A DNA stretch of 61,923 nt from a virus. The position numbers and the translations under genes are program-made. The notes beneath the pieces were generated by a model. It had not been told where the DNA came from. It saw nothing but the letters and a program-made list of their open reading frames with translations, and did not search any database. Position 1 is the first letter of the stretch. The number at the start of each line of letters is the position of its first letter. The stretch is from the IMG/VR virus record IMGVR_UViG_3300048591_001211, positions 1 to 61,923 of that record. One strand, given 5' to 3'. Shown here one piece after another: positions 7,685-38,360 of this stretch.

Positions 7685-8890
7685 TTCGAGGCCGATGGTA
7701 ACCGCCTGCACGAAGACCCCGCCGTCGGCGTTGATCGTGCCCGACGTCGGCTCGACGCCGCCGGCGGGTTGCGTGAGCACCTGGCCGCTGAGCTGCTGCG
7801 TTGGCTGCACGATGCCGGAGAGCCACCACCCGGAGTAGCCGACCCGAACATCCAGCCAGTTCGTGACCGGAATGACTCCGGTCAGCCCCACTTCACCCAG
7901 GAAGCTCGCGCTTACTGGTGATTGGTCAATGGCAACCGACTGGGTGAGAAACGGTCCTGTCGCATTCGACGTATACGAGGAACGCTGGACGCCGTTGTTG
8001 TAGTACGCCCCCGCCTTCACGATCGAGTCGACCCGCATCCATGGAAGCGAAAAGAGGACTCCGTCGATGCCGATCTGCCCACCGTAGAGGCTGTTGAAAC
8101 ACTCGGTGCTGTAGAAGTCTTGGATCGTCTGGGTTCCAACGAACTCGTCTGACAGCGAGAAATTCTCCTGCCACTCGACCCAGCGAAATCCGGCGAGAAA
8201 TCGGGCGTGCTCTCCGATCCACCAATGACGGTTCACTTCGAGGCTCTTCATCCACGCCCCGAGATTCACGGTGCCGGTGTCGAAGTTTTGCGTGTTGCCG
8301 TTCCCGTAGAACCCAGGTGGAGCGAGGGCGTAGAGATCAGACTGTGCTGAGAGCGGCCTTTCGCTCCGCCAGTTGGCGATCTGGAAGTAGGTCGTTTCGA
8401 TCGCAGTGCCGTTGGCATCGTTGAAACGAAAGATCGAGAACCTCGGGCCGGCTGCCGCCGGGCTGTCCATGCCGTTGGCGTTGAGAACCGGCGTGCCGCT
8501 CAGGCCTGTCTCGACGAGTGGGCGGTCGGGCGGTGCATCGCGCCAGGCGATGAGCGCGTCGACACGGCCCACCCAGAGCACATCCTGATTGGCGATGACG
8601 GGGCCGAGCAGTCCACTATGCCCCGAGCCATCCTGGTCGGAGATCCAACTGGTGCCCTCGTCCTCCGATCCGACGATGATCCCGTCGTCCGGCGTGGCTC
8701 GTGGCGGCTGTGCAGGAACCATGCTCGGCGCCGGGCCTTCCGAGACGAGAACTGACTCGTTCGGCAGATCGACCCAGCCGTCCTGGGCGCTCGATCCCCC
8801 GGGGATGAGGCCGGCGATCACCGCGAAGGCCATGGCAGCCGAGCGGAGGAGCCTGTCGATTCTGCGGATCAATCCGGCACGCGCCGCCAT
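7673..8890 (-). CDS. BBP7 family outer-membrane beta-barrel protein
   Basis: This 405-residue protein starts with a positively charged, hydrophobic signal peptide (RRIDRLLRSAAMAFAVIAGL, cleavage probably after GGSSA). A region with PVL-x-x-NGMDSPAAAGPR follows, then alternating aromatic strands (WWIGEHARFLAGFRWVEW, LGEVGLTGVIP) and a C-terminal strand ending in W, as in BBP7-like barrels that are abundant in Planctomycetota. The start at 8890 is preferred over one 35 residues upstream because the signal peptide begins there and GGAG lies about 10 nt before it. It is expected in the outer membrane; its substrate or role is unknown. It is convergent with the giant surface gene. Confidence 0.8.
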   Translation of the reverse strand: MAARAGLIRRIDRLLRSAAMAFAVIAGLIPGGSSAQDGWVDLPNESVLVSEGPAPSMVPAQPPRATPDDGIIVGSEDEGTSWISDQDGSGHSGLLGPVIANQDVLWVGRVDALIAWRDAPPDRPLVETGLSGTPVLNANGMDSPAAAGPRFSIFRFNDANGTAIETTYFQIANWRSERPLSAQSDLYALAPPGFYGNGNTQNFDTGTVNLGAWMKSLEVNRHWWIGEHARFLAGFRWVEWQENFSLSDEFVGTQTIQDFYSTECFNSLYGGQIGIDGVLFSLPWMRVDSIVKAGAYYNNGVQRSSYTSNATGPFLTQSVAIDQSPVSASFLGEVGLTGVIPVTNWLDVRVGYSGWWLSGIVQPTQQLSGQVLTQPAGGVEPTSGTINADGGVFVQAVTIGLEGRW

Positions 8891-9102
8891 GGTTTCCGTC
8901 TCCGTGGACACTTCCTGACTGTCCGGTGGAATCGGTCGTGACGGTTGTCCGCCCCCATCGGCCGAGACGGTGTTCCTGTTACGTGGACCTGGCAAACTTT
9001 GACGCTCGATCGCGCAGGCCGCGAAGGCCCTCTTTCACCCAGGCTGCCAGGACTGCAAACTTCGCCGTTGCCGCAGACTCTCCTGCTTCGCTGAACGGTG
9101 GC

Positions 9103-12100
9103 CTATGGAGCCGGCGCGACCTCGAGCGCACCGAAGGCCTTCAGGGCTTCGCCGGTGTGGCTTCGGAGCAAATGCTTGTCGCCGGCGCCGCGTTCCCAGA
9201 GCTCCGCATGGATGACCAGGTCTTCTGGGGGACCTTCGGCCACGATCCGGCCGCCGCCCGCACCCGCTTCGGGGCCCATGTCGATGACCCAATCGGCCGC
9301 GGCGACGACCTCGAGGTTATGCTCCACGACGAGGACGGTATTGCCTCCAGCCACGAGGCGTTCCAGCACACGGAGCAGCTTCTCGATGTCGGTGAAATGA
9401 AGGCCGGTCGTCGGCTCGTCGAGCACGTAGAGTGTTTTGCCCGTGGCCTGTTTGGCGAGCTCGCGGGAGAGTTTCACGCGCTGGGCCTCGCCCCCCGAAA
9501 GCTGCGGGGCAGGCTGGCCAAGCGTGATGTAGCCGAGGCCGACATCCACGAGGGTCTCGAGAATCCGCGCCACCTGCGGCACCGTGCTGAAAAAAGCCGC
9601 CGCCTCGCCAATGCTCATCTCCAGGACATCGGCGATGTTCTTGCCATGCCACTTCGCATGGAGCGTTTCCGAAGAATAGCGACGCCCCTTGCAGTGTTCG
9701 CACTCGACCCAGACGTCCGGGAGAAAGTGCATCTCGACACGTCGCTGGCCGAGTCCCTCGCAGGCCTCGCAGCGGCCTCCGGCGACGTTGAACGAAAAGG
9801 TCCGAGGCGTAAACCCGCGCGTCCGCGCCTCGGGGACCTTTGAAAAGAGCTGGCGGATGTGGTCGAAGACACCCGTGTACGTCGCGGGAGTCGAGCCCGG
9901 CGTGACCCCGATCGGCTCCTGATCGACAAGGATCACCCGATCGATTCGATCGAGCCCGGTGAGCTTGGCAAAACGCCCTGGCTGTTCGCGGGCTGCGTGG
10001 AGTCGTCGCGCCAGTGCCTTCCACAGCACCTCGAGCACGAGCGACGTCTTGCCCGAGCCGCTCGGGCCGGTGACGGCCGTCAAGACTCCCAGCGGAAACT
10101 TCACGTCGAGACCGCGGAGCGTGCGATGCTCGATGCCTTGAATCGTGAGCCATCCAGTCGGCTCGCGCCGGCCTTCTTCGAGCTTCCGCGCAAGCACCGC
10201 GTCAGAAGCACGGCGGCTTGTGAGGTATGGCCCCGTCACACTCGTCACGAGCTTTTCGAGCTTCCGCGGCGTGCCATGGGCCACGATCTGTCCCCCTTCG
10301 CGGCCACTGCCAGGCCCGAAGTCGAGCGCGTGATCGGCCGCGGCGACGACATCGCGGTCGTGCTCCACGACGACGACCGTGTTCCCGAGGTCACGGAGTT
10401 TGCCAAGCGCGGTGATGAGACGATGGGTGTCACGTGGATGCAACCCGATCGTCGGCTCGTCGAGGACGTAGAGCACACCGGTCAGGCCGCTGCCCACCTG
10501 GGCTGCGAGCCGAATGCGCTGCATCTCGCCGCCGGACAGACTTCCGGCAGGTCGGGCCATGTCGAGGTAATCGAGGCCCACATCGACGAGGAACGACACC
10601 CGCGCAAGCAGTTCACGAAGGAGGTCCCCTGCGATGCGCTTGCCGGAGTCGTCGAGTGTGATCGCGGCGAGCTCGTCGTGAAGTCGGCCGAGCGGCATCC
10701 GGCACCAGACATCGAGTGGGCGGCCCCACAGCGTGACGGCGGCGGCAACGTCGGCAAGGCGGCTCCCGCCGCACTCGCTGCAGGGCACCTCGTCCATGAC
10801 CGTATCGACCTTGCCGCGGTAGGCCACGACGAGCCGGGCTGCTTCCTCGCAGGCCGCTTCCAGGCCTTTGAACTGGAACGAGAATCCTGGGCCCTCGATC
10901 CATTTTTCTCCTGTGCCTTCGAAGAGCACGCGCTGTTGGAGTCCGGAGAGGTCGCCCAGTGGCACTTCCATCGGCAGGCCTGTCGCCTTGCAGACAGCGT
11001 TGAGCATCGCCCGGCTCACCGGCGACGCGAGGGCCGGCCACAGATCGAGGGCCCCATCAGCCAGTGACACTGAAAAATCCCGAACGAGTGCCTTGCGGTC
11101 GACACCCACCCGCGTGCCGAGGCCGTCGCAACTCGGGCACCAGCCGAGTGGGCTGTTGAACGAAAACTGCCTGGGTTCCAGCGGCTTGAAGCCTCGGCCG
11201 CAATCGGGGCAGGCGAGCTTTCTACTCTGGATGTCGACTGGCCAGTCAGGTTCCTCGACACCATCGATTGCTCGGGCTACGACCATCGTGCCGCCTCCGG
11301 CATCAAAGGCGGCCTCGATGCTCTGGGCCAGCCGGCTGCGCTCGCCAGGCGCCGCTGTCACCCGATCGATGACGATCTCGAGTCTGCTTTTGCGTTTACG
11401 ATCGAGCGCCGGCTTTTCATCGAGCCGCATCGTGCGGCCGTCGATCCGGATGCGCACATGCCCCGCGGCCAAAAGCTGCGTGAAGAGCGCTTCGGGCGTT
11501 TGACCGGTGCGCAGCTCGATCGGGGCGAGGAGCAGCATGCGCGTGCCTGGCGGGTTCGCGAGCAGCCGATCGACGACCTGATCCACGCTTTGGCTCGTGA
11601 CCTGCGTGCCGCACCCAGGACAGTGCATCACCCCGATCCGCGCGGCGAGCACGCGAAAATGGTCGTACATTTCGGTGATGGTTCCAACCGTCGATCGCGG
11701 CGTGCCATGGCTGCTCCGCTGTTCGATCGCGACGGCCGGAGCCAGCCCTTCGATCCGCTCGAAGATCGGCTTCGGCACCTGGCCGACGAACTGCCGGGCA
11801 TAGGGGGAGAGGCTTTCGACATACCGCCGCTGCCCCTCGGCATAGAGCGTGTCGAACGCGAGCGACGTCTTCCCCGAACCACTCGGACCACAGCAGACCG
11901 TCATCGCCCCACGTGGAATGTCTGCATCGACATGTTTGAGATTATGGAGCGCGGCGCCGCGAACCGTGATGGCTGGTGGCCCGGGATCGATCGACGCCTT
12001 GGAGACGGCGGCAAGCATCGCCGCGACGGCCTTCGACGGATCGGCTACTTTCTTGCGCCGCACGGCGGGCGTGCGCCGCGTCGCCCGATCAGCAGCATCC

Positions 12101-15108: not shown

Positions 15109-15181
15109 GGGGCGGTAGCTCAACTGGGAGAGCGCGGCGTTCGCAATGCCGAGGTTGGGAGTTCGATCCTCCTCCGCTCCA
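15109..15181 (+). tRNA. tRNA-Ala (anticodon CGC)
   Basis: The sequence folds as a full cloverleaf: a 7-bp acceptor stem with the G3-U70 pair that identifies alanine tRNAs, D-arm GCTC/GAGC, anticodon stem CGGCG/TGCCG with loop TTCGCAA (anticodon CGC at 15142-15144), a 5-nt variable loop, and a TTCGATC T-loop. The discriminator base is A and CCA is not encoded. It lies divergent to uvrA and just before the accessory/phage DNA, a classic integration target. It reads GCG codons. Confidence 0.95.
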
Positions 15182-30637: not shown

Positions 30638-31567
30638 ATGATCTGGCCCAGGGTTGTGATTGTGGGGATGATCGCCGCGATGTTGGCGGCTACCGGGCGC
30701 TGCGAAGAGCCCGCCGATGTTGATGTTGCGGAGGTGCTCCGCCTTGGCGACACCGTGCAGCACGTCGATGGAATCCGACAAAACTCGGACGATCTCTTCG
30801 TCGAGGCCATGTCGACTCCCGATGACGACTCCGGGAAGTGGTTCGTTTCAGTCCTCACGATGCAGGCCTGCGCTCCATGTGAGCGGCTCAAGGCCGACTG
30901 GAAGACGAGCCAGCACCTTCTCGCTCTCGCGGACCCCGACAACCCCAAGCGGTCGTGGGCTCACTACCAGGTCTACCCGCGCGAAGATAAGAGCCAGGCC
31001 TTCCGGTTCGAGGGGATCAAGGTCACGAGCTATCCGACCGTGATCGTCCAGCCGCCCAGGAACGGGAAGTACGGCGACCCGAAGACCGTGGTTTACCAGG
31101 GTGGATACGGTGGCGATCCCGAGAAGCTGGCTCGGCAGATCACGGACGCTGTGCGCCGATACGTCTCGCGCGTGGAGTCGGCACCGGACCCGGCTTCGAC
31201 CGCCTTTAAGGGCTACGACCCACCGTGGTCTCCGCCTCCGAAGGTCGATGACGCTGTTCCCGTGGGACCGGTGGTTTTTCCCGACGGCCTGCCGCTGATT
31301 CCACCCCCGTCGCCAATGGCGGGAGTAGCGGGCCTCTCGACGGTGGTGCTGGTCTTGCTCTCGGTGATCGCGACGCTCGCGGTGGTGTTTGTGCTACCGG
31401 CAGGGTTGAGGGCTCTGCAAGCCGGGCGGGAACGTCGGGACCAAGCGAGGCAAGCAGCTCGAGCACGGGACCAAGCATTGGCGCAGCTCCTGAGCCGGCT
31501 GGAGAACGGAAACGTTTCGACGGCCACAGGCTCAGAAACCTCGGCCAAGGTATCGCCAGCGGCCTGA
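30638..31567 (+). CDS. Exported thioredoxin-like protein with membrane anchor
   Basis: This 309-residue protein has a signal peptide (VVIVGMIAAMLAATGRC), then a thioredoxin-like domain with active site QACAPCERLK (CxxC, near residue 77-80) and a cis-Pro-like SYPTVIV near residue 130. A Pro-rich linker leads to a membrane helix (STVVLVLLSVIATLAVVFVL) and a charged cytoplasmic tail. It would face the periplasm. An exported thioredoxin in a phage is unusual; it may reduce or oxidise disulfides of Cys-rich tail or host proteins. Confidence 0.7.
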   Translation: MIWPRVVIVGMIAAMLAATGRCEEPADVDVAEVLRLGDTVQHVDGIRQNSDDLFVEAMSTPDDDSGKWFVSVLTMQACAPCERLKADWKTSQHLLALADPDNPKRSWAHYQVYPREDKSQAFRFEGIKVTSYPTVIVQPPRNGKYGDPKTVVYQGGYGGDPEKLARQITDAVRRYVSRVESAPDPASTAFKGYDPPWSPPPKVDDAVPVGPVVFPDGLPLIPPPSPMAGVAGLSTVVLVLLSVIATLAVVFVLPAGLRALQAGRERRDQARQAARARDQALAQLLSRLENGNVSTATGSETSAKVSPAA

Positions 31568-34594: not shown

Positions 34595-34915
34595 ATGCGT
34601 TCGCCGGCCGTCTCGAATCACTTCACCGATGCCAACGGCAACCCATCCGGTGGCACCACGTTCGGTCAAGGTTTTGCCATCGGGTGGCAGAACGGTCCGC
34701 TCGGTCGTGGCGAGGAGCGGAAGCAGCCAAACGGGGCGTTCATCGAGGACATCATCGCTGCGGCCAAGGATCGGCTGGAGTTCTACCAGGCGTCCAAGTT
34801 CGCCTGCGAAGCGAACGAGACAGCCATCGATCTCCTGGCTGCGGCCCTCGGTGTGCTGAACGCCCGCACGGCCGATCGCGAGAAGCGTGCCGTCGAGGGC
34901 ACACACGCCCCCTGA
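34595..34915 (+). CDS. Tad1/Acb2-like anti-defence cyclic-nucleotide sponge
   Basis: This 106-residue protein has a beta-strand part (FGQGFAIGWQNGPLGR) followed by NGAFIEDIIAAAKDRLEFYQ and SKFACEANETAIDLLAAALG, ending LNARTADREKRAVEGTHAP. The R-x-R-x-V-E-G-T-H ending and helical hairpin match the Tad1 family (Acb2/Tad1 hairpin), which sequesters gcADPR or cyclic oligonucleotides and blocks Thoeris or CBASS defence. It lies just after a hairpin and before a lipid desaturase gene. Ligand specificity cannot be told from sequence. Confidence 0.7.
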   Translation: MRSPAVSNHFTDANGNPSGGTTFGQGFAIGWQNGPLGRGEERKQPNGAFIEDIIAAAKDRLEFYQASKFACEANETAIDLLAAALGVLNARTADREKRAVEGTHAP

Positions 34916-34927
34916 TCGCCCAACCAC

Positions 34928-35473
34928 ATGGCCATCGATATCAACATCGACCTCGGTTACGCACTTGCTGCCTGGGTGGTCGCCGACTTCCTCTCGGGTG
35001 TCGTGCATTGGATTGAGGACCGCTACGGTGACCCAGCATGGCCCGTCATCGGCCGTCACGTCATCGAGCCGAACATCCTCCACCATCGGGACCAGATGGC
35101 GTTCACCGCGGGTGGCTACTGGCAACGCAACTGGACCACGCTCGTGCCGGCGGCGGCTGCCGCCGGGATGGCGTGGCTGGCCGGCTCGGCATTCCTGGCG
35201 GTCACGTTCCTCATGCTCTCCCAGGCGAACGAGATCCATGCCTGGGCTCACCAGCGATGCGTGCGCCCGATCCGCGGTCTGCAGCTCATCGGCATTTTCC
35301 AATCACCGGAGCAGCACGCCGATCACCACCGGCGGCCGTTCGACCGGAACTACTGCACCATGAGCGACTGGCTCAACCCGTTGCTATCGCGCGCCGGCTT
35401 CTGGCCCGCCCTCGAGCTGCTGGTGGCGAGGGTCACCGGGCTATCGCCACGACCCGAAAGGCAGGTGGCTTGA
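34928..35473 (+). CDS. CarF/TMEM189-like lipid (plasmanylethanolamine) desaturase
   Basis: This 181-residue protein has the histidine pattern of the CarF/TMEM189 desaturase domain: GVVHW (H27), EPNILHHRDQ (H52, H53), NEIHAWAHQ (H104, H108) and SPEQHADHHRRPFD (H130, H133, H134), followed by CTMSDWLNP. Hydrophobic stretches near residues 8-25 and 72-98 fit membrane embedding. In animals and myxobacteria this enzyme desaturates plasmanyl lipids to plasmalogens. A phage copy could remodel host membranes. It overlaps the HNH gene by 1 bp. Confidence 0.8.
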   Translation: MAIDINIDLGYALAAWVVADFLSGVVHWIEDRYGDPAWPVIGRHVIEPNILHHRDQMAFTAGGYWQRNWTTLVPAAAAAGMAWLAGSAFLAVTFLMLSQANEIHAWAHQRCVRPIRGLQLIGIFQSPEQHADHHRRPFDRNYCTMSDWLNPLLSRAGFWPALELLVARVTGLSPRPERQVA

Positions 35474-36033
35474 TGCCGCGCAAGCTCCCTTACGTCAGCG
35501 TGCCGAAGCCCCGCCGCCGCCCCAGTGCCGCGGCCCGCGGGTACTGCAGTCGCAAGCATCGGGAGTGGCGGCTCGCTGTCCTGCGACGGGATGAGTGGAC
35601 ATGCCAGGATTGCGGCCGGGTCTGCACTGACAAGGCAGAGGCGCACGCTGACCACGTCAGCCCGATCGTGCAGGGGACTGACTACTGCGAGGACGGGTCC
35701 AGTAGGTACGACGTGCGGAACGGTAAGTGCCGCTGCATCCGATGCCACAGCCGCAAGACGCAAGCCGAGAACGCCGGAGGGAAACGAATTCCGGCCGACC
35801 CCAGGGGGGGCTTCCAAAGTTCCAAAGCCCCCACGAATCCAAACCACCTGCTTGCCGCACGCACGCGACCGGGAGTTTTCGAGGGGGGGGGGTCGAATTC
35901 GCAATCCCCGGGTGAAACGGCGTCTGGGGCCGTGCGGTGGCCCGTCGTTGTGGACCCTGCCATGCCACCCGATCGGCTCCTCGTCGGTGGTGTTTGGATT
36001 GCCCTTGGGGTGCCTGCCGGGGGTGTGGAGTGA
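35473..36033 (+). CDS. HNH endonuclease
   Basis: This 186-residue protein has an HNH core at residues 28-95: EWTCQDCGRVC, EAHADHVSPI (catalytic His pair), and VRNGKCRCIRCHSRKT with zinc cysteines. HNH proteins near terminases assist DNA packaging in cos phages. The last 80 residues are low-complexity and GC-rich, containing a hairpin and a run of ten G; the tail may be poorly conserved. Its stop overlaps the GTG of the next gene. Confidence 0.8.
   Translation: MPRKLPYVSVPKPRRRPSAAARGYCSRKHREWRLAVLRRDEWTCQDCGRVCTDKAEAHADHVSPIVQGTDYCEDGSSRYDVRNGKCRCIRCHSRKTQAENAGGKRIPADPRGGFQSSKAPTNPNHLLAARTRPGVFEGGGSNSQSPGETASGAVRWPVVVDPAMPPDRLLVGGVWIALGVPAGGVE
35806..35832. repeat. Inverted repeat with nested direct repeat in HNH gene tail
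   Basis: GGGGGCTT (35806-35813) pairs with AAGCCCCC (35825-35832); between them TTCCAAAG is directly repeated (TTCCAAAGTTCCAAAG). A run of ten G follows at 35883-35892. The location after the HNH core and before the terminase makes a cos-like or packaging-related role conceivable. It may also be low-complexity sequence. Confidence 0.35.
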
Positions 36034-36602
36034 GTACCGGGACGATCCGAAACCGCGTGGTGAGGCTGGCGAGCGTTCGTGCCGGCGACCTGGTGCCGAA
36101 CCCCAGGAACTGGCGGACGCACCCGGCCGGACAGGCCGCCGCGCTCCGTGGGATCCTCGCCGAGATCGGGTACGCGGACGCCCTGCTCGCGCGGGAGTTG
36201 CCGGATGGTCGGCTGATGCTGATCGACGGTCACCTGCGGGCCGAGACGACACCCGACCTTGAGGTGCCGGTCCTGGTCCTCGACCTGAACGAAGAGGAGG
36301 CTGACAAGCTGCTCCTGTCCCTTGACCCGCTCGCCGCGATGGCGGAGGCGAACGCAGAGGCGATCGGCGAGCTGCTCCGCGAGGTGGAAACAGGCAGCGA
36401 AGGGCTGCAGAAGATGTACGCCGGGATGGCAAAAGACGCTGGCCTTCTCGCCGATGCCGACGCGTCGAGCCCGCAAGAGTCGGACTTTCAATACGAGCAG
36501 CAGTACGGCGTCACCGTGGTGTGTCGCGACGAGAGGCACCAGCAGGAGATCTACGATCGCCTGACGTCCGAGGGGCTGGAGTGCAAGGTGGTGGTCGTAT
36601 GA
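36030..36602 (+). CDS. ParB-like nuclease-domain protein
   Basis: This 190-residue protein begins with a GTG that overlaps the HNH stop. Its ParB N-terminal-like domain includes VRAGDLVPNPRNWRTHP, ALRGILAEIGYADALLAREL and LMLIDGHLRAETTP (the ParB/Srx GHxR box), then PVLVLDLNEEEADKLLLSLD. Such phage ParB-like proteins often precede methyltransferases or base-modifying enzymes. It overlaps the ABC-GNAT gene by ATGA. Role in DNA modification is inferred. Confidence 0.8.
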   Translation: MSTGTIRNRVVRLASVRAGDLVPNPRNWRTHPAGQAAALRGILAEIGYADALLARELPDGRLMLIDGHLRAETTPDLEVPVLVLDLNEEEADKLLLSLDPLAAMAEANAEAIGELLREVETGSEGLQKMYAGMAKDAGLLADADASSPQESDFQYEQQYGVTVVCRDERHQQEIYDRLTSEGLECKVVVV

Positions 36603-37711
36603 AAATCGCCGTCCGCAATCGGTGCTCCGACTTCAACTCGTACCGGGCCGCCCGCGTGAAAAGCCTCTTCAACGCGGAGAGCGGCTGCGACTTCACGCTC
36701 GACGCCGATCTCCCCATAGATGACAGCGATTGGAAACTCGGGCTTGTGGTAGGCCCGTCCGGCTCCGGCAAGACCTCGATCGGAAAGCAGATATTCGGCG
36801 ACGCCGGCGCGGTGTACGACCCGTCGGACTGGCCCGCGGACAAGCCGATCGTTGATGCGATTGCCCCTGGTGGCGACTTCGACGCGGTGACGGGCGCTCT
36901 TGCGTCTGTCGGGCTTGGAAGCGTTCCGGCGTGGTTGCGCCCGTTCCACGTTCTGTCGAACGGCGAGCGCTTTCGGGCGAACCTCGCTCGGCTCGTGTGC
37001 GAGGCACCGCCGAAGGTTGTGGTCGACGAGTTCACCTCGGTCGTGGACAGGCAAATAGCCAGGTTCGGTGCGCTGGCCTTCCAGAAGTCGTGGCGTCGAA
37101 CCGGCGGGAAGTGCGTGCTGCTCTCTTGTCACTACGACGTGATCGATTGGCTGGAGCCGGACTGGGTCTACGACACCTCAAGCGGCCAATACGCCGGGAG
37201 GCGTCTTTGGCGACGGCCAAAGTTCGACCTCGAGATATGGCAGACGGACAAGCGCTACTGGCACCTGTTTGAGCCGCATTACTATCTGAGGCTGCCATCG
37301 ATGATCGCGGCAACGTACTACGTCGGGTTCGTCGACGGGGAGCCCGTGTGCCACCTCGGGGTTTCCCCGAAGCTCGAGGTGGGAGGTATGCGCGCGAGTC
37401 GCATGGTCGTGATGCCCGAGTGGCAAGGGGCCGGCGTCGGTGTTCGCTTCTTGAACGAGGTGTGCCAAATGCAGATCGATGGCCGCGGCCCATACGGCCG
37501 TCGCCCGCGCTGCGTTTTCTTCCATACGTCGCACCCAGGCCTGTGCCACGCACTGCGCAAGTCGCCCGGCTGGAGGCAGGTGAGCGCGGTGCTCGCCGGC
37601 GGGAATAAGGCCAGGAGCCGGAGAAGCATGCAGAAGTCGGGAGCGGTCACTGCCGGTTACGGCGGCCACTTCCGCGCGGTCCAGGGTTTCAAGTATGTCG
37701 GCTGTGCCTAG
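36599..37711 (+). CDS. ABC-ATPase-GNAT acetyltransferase fusion
   Basis: This 370-residue protein has a complete ABC-type ATPase: Walker A GPSGSGKT at residues 52-59, signature HVLSNGERFRANLARL, Walker B KVVVDEFTSV, H-loop VLLSCHYDV. A GNAT domain follows, with MRASRMVVMPEWQGAGVGVRF as the acetyl-CoA-binding motif A, and a conserved end (YGGHFRAVQGFKYVG). I recognise the family as widespread but uncharacterised in phages and prophages. GNAT folds also include Mom-type DNA modification enzymes, so a base-modifying role is plausible. Confidence 0.8.
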   Translation: MKIAVRNRCSDFNSYRAARVKSLFNAESGCDFTLDADLPIDDSDWKLGLVVGPSGSGKTSIGKQIFGDAGAVYDPSDWPADKPIVDAIAPGGDFDAVTGALASVGLGSVPAWLRPFHVLSNGERFRANLARLVCEAPPKVVVDEFTSVVDRQIARFGALAFQKSWRRTGGKCVLLSCHYDVIDWLEPDWVYDTSSGQYAGRRLWRRPKFDLEIWQTDKRYWHLFEPHYYLRLPSMIAATYYVGFVDGEPVCHLGVSPKLEVGGMRASRMVVMPEWQGAGVGVRFLNEVCQMQIDGRGPYGRRPRCVFFHTSHPGLCHALRKSPGWRQVSAVLAGGNKARSRRSMQKSGAVTAGYGGHFRAVQGFKYVGCA

Positions 37712-38360
37712 GATGCGCCTCTACATATGCGGCCAGCGTGAGTTTGGCGCACGTGTCCTTCGGCTCGCCGTCGGCATGGGGCACGATGTCGTCGGCTGCT
37801 GCTGCCCGGTCGGAAACTCTAAGGGCGACGGGCCTGACCGCACGCGTGAGGCGGCAGGAGTTTTCGGGGTCCCTTGCATCCCGTCCGGAACGCTGACGCA
37901 CGACAAGGTTCCCGAAGGCGTTGACGCGATCGTCGCCGCGCACTCGCACGACTTCATCGGGCAGCGAACCCGCTACAGGGCGAGGTACGGAGCGTTCGGC
38001 TACCACCCGTCCCTACTCCCCAGGCACAGGGGCCGCGATGCAGTTCGCTGGACCGTGCGCATGCGAGACCCTATCGCCGGAGGATCCATTTACTGGCTGA
38101 ACGAGGTTATGGACGGAGGCCCGATCGCCGCTCAGGAATGGTGCTGGGTGTACGGCGATGACACGCCCGAGCGGCTTTGGAGGGAACGGCTGTTTCCGAT
38201 CGGGCTGTCGCTCATGGAGCGAGTCCTTTCCGACATCCCGCGGCACTTTGAAAACAAGGTCGCGCAGGACGAGAGGGCGGCCACCTTTGAGCCTTCGATG
38301 AGCCCACCGAGGGCATTCCGGCCGGACCTGCTTGGCATCCCGTTTCGTCACGCGTGCTAA
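37695..38360 (+). CDS. Formyltransferase family protein
   Basis: This 221-residue protein belongs to the methionyl-tRNA/GAR formyltransferase superfamily: GYHPSLLPRHRG near residues 102-113 and EVMDGGPIAAQ near 137-147. His104 and Asp140 of the catalytic set are present, but the usual Asn two residues before the His is Gly102, so the chemistry may differ. ATG 37695 has AGGG upstream; ATG 37713 (MRLYICGQ) is a good alternative start. It follows the ABC-GNAT gene and precedes the terminase. Confidence 0.75.
   Translation: MSAVPRMRLYICGQREFGARVLRLAVGMGHDVVGCCCPVGNSKGDGPDRTREAAGVFGVPCIPSGTLTHDKVPEGVDAIVAAHSHDFIGQRTRYRARYGAFGYHPSLLPRHRGRDAVRWTVRMRDPIAGGSIYWLNEVMDGGPIAAQEWCWVYGDDTPERLWRERLFPIGLSLMERVLSDIPRHFENKVAQDERAATFEPSMSPPRAFRPDLLGIPFRHAC

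Follow-up and report, generated by a model that had tools for sequence, protein, structure and literature searches.

Does a tailed phage carry an enzyme that changes the lipids of its host membrane, and if so, which enzyme is it? The question is raised by a gene in an IMG/VR virus record, which was analysed in its entirety (one linear stretch of 61,923 bases, or 61.9 kb, here called the window). The original prediction described the gene product as a desaturase of the CarF/TMEM189 type, in other words a plasmanylethanolamine desaturase (PEDS1), and connected it with plasmalogens and with the light response of myxobacteria.

The gene, its protein family and the predicted fold

The gene was found where it had been predicted, as an open reading frame running from an ATG to a stop codon (Table 1). 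Both flanking genes were also correctly named, one being Tad1-like (Thoeris anti-defence) and the other encoding an HNH endonuclease. The Tad1-like protein matches the C-terminal part of the solved Tad1 chains. A second, independent IMG/VR contig (3300048589) repeats the stretch from the Tad1-like gene through the desaturase, HNH, terminase and portal genes at 100%. Longer open reading frames in other frames overlap the desaturase gene. Its own frame is identified as the coding frame because dN/dS is 0.05–0.31 across homologous codons, for those pairs in which it was computable, and the desaturase genes are under purifying selection.

Table 1. Positions of the features discussed, numbered from the first base of the window. 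Residue numbers are those of the desaturase.
Feature	Position	Strand	Mouse PEDS1 residues	Evidence or remark
Fused double UvrA, 1961 aa	9103–14988	-		Single ORF; UvrA interaction domain and UvrA DNA-binding domain both present twice
tRNA-Ala (anticodon CGC)	15109–15181	+		Sole tRNA gene of the record
Exported thioredoxin-like protein, possible partner	30638–31567	+		74–75% identity to L082/L109; CAPC motif; Pfam Thioredoxin_2 at E 0.05 only
Tad1-like protein, 106 aa, upstream neighbour	34595–34915	+		PDB Tad1 chains, E ~7e-6 over residues 37–104; PHROG 2428, E 2e-18
Lipid desaturase gene, 181 aa	34928–35473	+		PF10520 core domain at residues 16–175
H27-W-I-E-D31, first metal-ligand His and essential Asp	35006–35020	+	H96, D100	Invariant in 41 homologues
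N49-I-L-H52-H53, HH box	35072–35086	+	F118, H121, H122	N49 replaces the Phe conserved in PEDS1 and FAD4; N in 31/31 viral rows, F in 20/20 long planctomycete rows
G62, site of the PEDS1-specific ninth His	35111–35113	+	H131 (CarF H113)	His in 0/31 viral rows
H104-A-W-A-H108 box	35237–35251	+	H187, H191	Histidines invariant
H130-A-D-H133-H134 box	35315–35329	+	H215, H218, H219	Histidines invariant
HNH endonuclease, downstream neighbour	35476–36033	+		PHROG 589 HNH, E 4.8e-19
ABC-type ATPase domain fused to a GNAT-like domain	36581–37711	+		PHROG 11143, 485 bits
Formyltransferase (PF00551)	37695–38360	+		PHROG 9240, named cyanobacterial phosphoribosylglycinamide formyltransferase

The protein matches Pfam PF10520 (Lipid_desat) with 146.1 bits (E 1.4e-42; the curated cut-off is 26.4 bits), over profile positions 1–173 of 175. 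The match to FA_hydroxylase (PF04116) is 24.5 bits, under the 31-bit cut-off of that model, and no Pfam model of classical fatty acid desaturases matches at E <= 0.01. The gene encodes a small membrane protein of the PF10520 superfamily. A phage-borne lipid desaturase is therefore supported at the level of the superfamily that contains CarF/TMEM189 and FAD4.

The histidine boxes are all present, as had been noted. Eight histidines correspond one by one to those of murine PEDS1, and D31 corresponds to the aspartate D100. Not one of these nine residues varies among 41 aligned homologues from phages and bacteria, and none of the metal ligands, whose loss had been named as one observation that would count against the idea, has been lost. 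The eight histidines and D100 are essential in murine PEDS1 (PMC8960569), the histidines also according to PMC7149458.

AlphaFold2, given the 41-sequence alignment as input, predicts the fold with confidence (pLDDT 93.5, pTM 0.88), and the model contains all eight histidines and the aspartate. Among viral predicted structures, the best fold match is Harvfovirus A0A3G5A308 (E 7e-5, 27% identity), a protein of 220 residues from a eukaryotic giant virus that carries the annotation "Lipid desaturase domain". It is followed by an unnamed viral protein (E 2.5e-4). A Foldseek search against solved structures gave no match below E 0.7. With VIA-align, the top solved match is the fatty acid 2-hydroxylase domain of Scs7p (Z 6.7, rmsd 4.0, 147 aligned residues), a Z below 8 being weak alone; the runner-up has Z 3.0. 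Scs7p, the closest solved fold, is a membrane di-metal fatty acid 2-hydroxylase. By sequence, the PDB contains no match for the desaturase and no credible match for the family profile. The model is consistent with what would be expected of a small membrane di-metal oxidase.

Comparison with CarF/TMEM189 and FAD4

CarF/TMEM189 (PEDS1, NCBIfam model NF045946) has in common with the phage protein the PF10520 fold, the eight essential histidines and the essential aspartate. There are however clear differences. The ninth histidine of PEDS1 is Gly62 here and is absent in all 31 viral representatives, and the conserved Phe is Asn49, again in all 31. The phage protein also lacks some 60–80 N-terminal residues with one transmembrane helix: its alignment begins at TMEM189 residue 81 and CarF profile position 63, and its start coincides with the second transmembrane helix of TMEM189. 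On the NF045946 model it scores 94 bits, compared with 234 for TMEM189 and 80 for FAD4 (both as reference sequences not drawn from a database) and 211–240 for the three planctomycete PEDS1-like proteins tested. This lies below the equivalog cut-off of 500 bits, but the cut-off is narrow, human TMEM189 itself reaching only 234.

The phylogeny suggested with the original prediction does not favour it either. A maximum-likelihood tree was calculated for 74 sequences, which included the 31 viral representatives and the reference sequences for TMEM189 and FAD4, with CarF itself left out. The PEDS1-like proteins stand apart from a clade of 51 sequences that holds all the phage proteins (99/99). The TMEM189 and FAD4 reference sequences used in the scores and the tree were not drawn from database records and serve as leads; the eleven functional positions of this TMEM189 sequence agree with published residue numbers. 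On the basis of G62, N49, the missing N-terminal transmembrane part, the CarF-profile score and the tree, identification of the protein as PEDS1 was rejected, and the more specific CarF/TMEM189 label was abandoned.

A review by the discoverers of CarF (PMC9131029) states that function depends on the ninth histidine, which homologues from animals, myxobacteria and Leptospira possess and those from plants (usually with Arg instead) and Alphaproteobacteria lack. Attempts to replace CarF in M. xanthus with an alphaproteobacterial homologue and with three Arabidopsis homologues failed (PMC9131029). In mouse PEDS1, the mutant H131A retains 7% of activity and F118A 6% (PMC8960569), and loss of PEDS1 activity in the phage protein is thus likely rather than absolute. 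The phage protein has no ninth histidine and belongs to a clade separate from the PEDS1-like proteins, and the alphaproteobacterial homologue failed to replace CarF; therefore the roles in plasmalogen formation and light response are not inherited by homology. For the alphaproteobacterial homologue itself, nothing more follows from this failure than that it is no PEDS1.

Plant FAD4, a delta-3-trans phosphatidylglycerol desaturase, shares with the phage protein PF10520, the eight histidines, the aspartate and similar HAWAH and HAxHH boxes. Both are without the ninth histidine, which is Arg in FAD4. The phage protein differs in having Asn for Phe at position 49, and has no N-terminal extension. 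Its local identity is 36.6% to FAD4 and 32.7% to TMEM189, for the same two reference sequences. FAD4 forms a very long branch in the tree (2.58), so that its placement is unsure.

The phage proteins share their clade with alphaproteobacterial CarF homologues (from Bradyrhizobium diazoefficiens in PMC9131029, and from Hyphomonas, Sphingopyxis and Novosphingobium here). These belong to the same "N/T..HH" clade, are of similar length and likewise have no ninth histidine, and several of them lie inside Mu-like prophages. Most phage members differ from them in forming a subclade of their own (100/98).

Distribution, gene neighbourhoods and host

The subclade consists of 33 sequences, nearly all of them viral, with three bacterial rows. 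Two of these lie on contigs of phage-like character that were assigned to Pirellula or Planctomycetota MAGs. The third (L065), from a Pirellulaceae MAG, lies beside a sulfatase gene and a BlaR1/M56 gene and looks chromosomal. The desaturase sits in a "PN..HH" clade of its own, dominated by phages. In IMG/VR, 62 relatives were confirmed in a first scan and at least 195 contigs in a second, the latter being a lower bound since the scan required exact motifs. Only 2 of 50,697 GenBank phage records match: Erythrobacter phage vB_EliS-L02 (homologue UIS25202.1, 41.7% identity to the desaturase) and an uncultured 595-kb phage. Among bacterial genomes, PF10520 is found above the cut-off in 4/289 Alphaproteobacteria (5 at E <= 0.001), in 2/196 from the order of Sphingorhabdus, and in 30/294 Planctomycetota. 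The phages carrying relatives are unrelated to each other, and include Mu-like phages, the Erythrobacter siphophage and planctomycete-associated phages. A literature search found no published account of a phage PF10520 or CarF protein, and the genome paper of vB_EliS-L02 does not mention the desaturase. The phage branch of PF10520 is large and apparently undescribed, although the kind of enzyme is already known.

Fifteen of the 20 long planctomycete PF10520 proteins (L158, L161–L164, L166–L175) have the full PEDS1 set, that is, the eight histidines, the ninth histidine, the Asp and the Phe. A 2022 review limited true CarF to myxobacteria and Leptospira (PMC9131029). Given these residues, and the TMEM189-like CarF-model scores of the three proteins tested, some planctomycetes may make plasmalogens aerobically.

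Clustering of 109 loci, with genes called by an amino-acid-composition caller, revealed no single desaturase neighbour conserved across lineages. In the window the desaturase stands before the terminase and portal genes. In four sphingomonadal genome loci (L071, L072, L076, L078) it is surrounded by Mu-like genes and occupies two distinct sites within a late region of Mu type: it adjoins a Mu Gp27-type gene in L076, with L072 arranged alike, and lies between Mu Gp36 and Gp37 in L078. In L073 it comes after genes for a predicted membrane protein, for one with a Tlde1/L,D-transpeptidase domain (the only Pfam match among the three) and for one resembling Rz. It lies between phoH and portal in vB_EliS-L02. 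In a Pirellula-associated group it has the gene of an exported trypsin-like protease ahead of it and head-tail genes behind, and in another phage group it is near a tyrosine integrase. In L124 the end of the desaturase gene is overlapped by a gene for a second lipid-active enzyme, a patatin-like phospholipase (8510–9373). No lysis gene was recognised close to the desaturase in the integrase-linked group or in the AT-rich one (L118, L121). From these positions we infer late expression and a role at the envelope; the link to lysis is suggestive.

L082 and L109 are the closest relatives, and in both the desaturase lies two genes downstream of an exported thioredoxin-like protein, separated from it by a 44-aa ORF. 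The upstream genes are shared between the window and L082 (72–94% identity), but in the window the distance from the thioredoxin-like gene to the desaturase is 3.3 kb, occupied by tail-fibre and Tad1-like genes. The thioredoxin-like protein was considered as an electron donor, and this candidate was rejected. CxxC motifs appeared to be enriched just upstream of the desaturase (10/77 versus 8/549 genes, Fisher p 9e-6), but the test is invalid, as the phages are related and most of the matches are a CPRC motif in trypsin-like proteases. Thioredoxin- or glutaredoxin-like neighbours then remain in two phage groups only (L082/L109/window and L131/L132/L135). They have a signal sequence or N-terminal anchor, which would place them at the membrane face opposite the CarF active site.

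The double UvrA of the window gives an indication of its host. Full-length matches occur in 3/64 Planctomycetota genomes, with 54–56% identity and more than 2100 bits, while the matches in 63 Alphaproteobacteria are of single length and reach at most 1041 bits. Since the full-length match is confined to Planctomycetota among the two groups searched, the host is likely to be a planctomycete. A contig with a phage-type desaturase is present as well in G002, which is among these three genomes. The window terminase matches 12/294 planctomycete and 18/289 alphaproteobacterial genomes and does not discriminate between them. The thioredoxin-like protein, with no match in the planctomycete or alphaproteobacterial genomes, is uninformative on the host.

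Proposed function and alternatives

We hypothesise, with a probability of roughly 0.6, that the protein is a minimal PF10520 membrane di-iron oxidase that desaturates glycerolipid chains of the host membrane and so alters the state of the membrane late in infection. It would be an integral-membrane enzyme with histidine-ligated iron, of the family of FAD4 and CarF/TMEM189, using O2, together with electrons supplied by a carrier of the host, to introduce a double bond into a hydrocarbon chain. The resulting change in the physical state of the membrane would probably come during virion production or release, because the gene is surrounded by late genes, with tail, packaging, envelope or lysis functions. 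Family membership, the complete ligands and selection suggest an active desaturase rather than a hydroxylase. Its action is presumably late in infection, and the benefit to the phage may lie in lysis or in membrane fitness. To our knowledge, no member of the "PN..HH" clade has been assayed so far.

As regards the product, plasmalogen formation is less likely than a FAD4-like activity on ester lipids. An enzyme that works as FAD4 does would desaturate phosphatidylglycerol, or an acyl lipid like it, in the sn-2 chain, giving a (trans, delta-3) double bond. The CarF-profile score is at the level of FAD4, the local identities to the FAD4 and TMEM189 reference sequences are similar, and ester phospholipids are present in every host, as ether lipids are not. 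Against this, FAD4 keeps the Phe that is Asn in all the viral proteins, and cannot be placed in the tree, and we regard this assignment as tentative. Formation of vinyl-ether plasmalogens from host ether lipids by a true PEDS1 would agree with the Pfam family and the eight histidines and Asp in common, and with hosts that may be Planctomycetota, some of which have PEDS1-like proteins with all nine histidines. The absence of the ninth histidine and of F118 from every viral row, the missing N-terminal transmembrane region, the profile score far from those of TMEM189 and the planctomycete proteins, and the separate clade make it improbable.

Hydroxylation of the lipid is a further alternative. 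The closest solved fold is that of a fatty acid hydroxylase, there is a sub-threshold match to PF04116, and desaturases and hydroxylases interconvert through few substitutions. However, the PF10520 score is far above that for PF04116, and the two characterised PF10520 activities that we know of, PEDS1 and FAD4, are both desaturations, so that a di-iron lipid hydroxylase is unlikely. The gene could finally be a passenger (a moron), captured recently from a bacterium and with no role in infection. Its variable site would fit, lying as it does two genes from the thioredoxin-like gene in the closest relatives and 3.3 kb away in the window. Purifying selection, the deep phage-dominated clade of 33 sequences and the presence in at least 195 viral contigs all point to long maintenance in phages; we consider a passenger gene very unlikely.

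A di-iron oxidase that desaturates host glycerolipids therefore remains the preferred reading. One may speculate further, though the proposal is doubtful, that a phage-specific branch of di-iron desaturases edits the host lipids of planctomycetes and alphaproteobacteria at the end of infection, giving a product unlike that of PEDS1 or FAD4 and aiding lysis or virion release.

Cyanophages carry classical acyl-lipid desaturases, from a family other than PF10520. Like the present gene these are phage-carried, and have been proposed to tune the host membrane (Roitman et al., 2018, as cited in PMC8228385).

Few phage enzymes chemically alter host membrane lipids. The present one belongs to a deep, selected clade, mostly of phages, within the family of the human plasmalogen enzyme, and we caution that the eight-histidine motif by itself does not justify calling such a gene a plasmalogen synthase. 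A related gene is present in a cultured phage, vB_EliS-L02, growing on a cultured host, Erythrobacter litoralis DSM 8509, which makes the question of whether phages re-tune membrane lipids late in infection directly testable.
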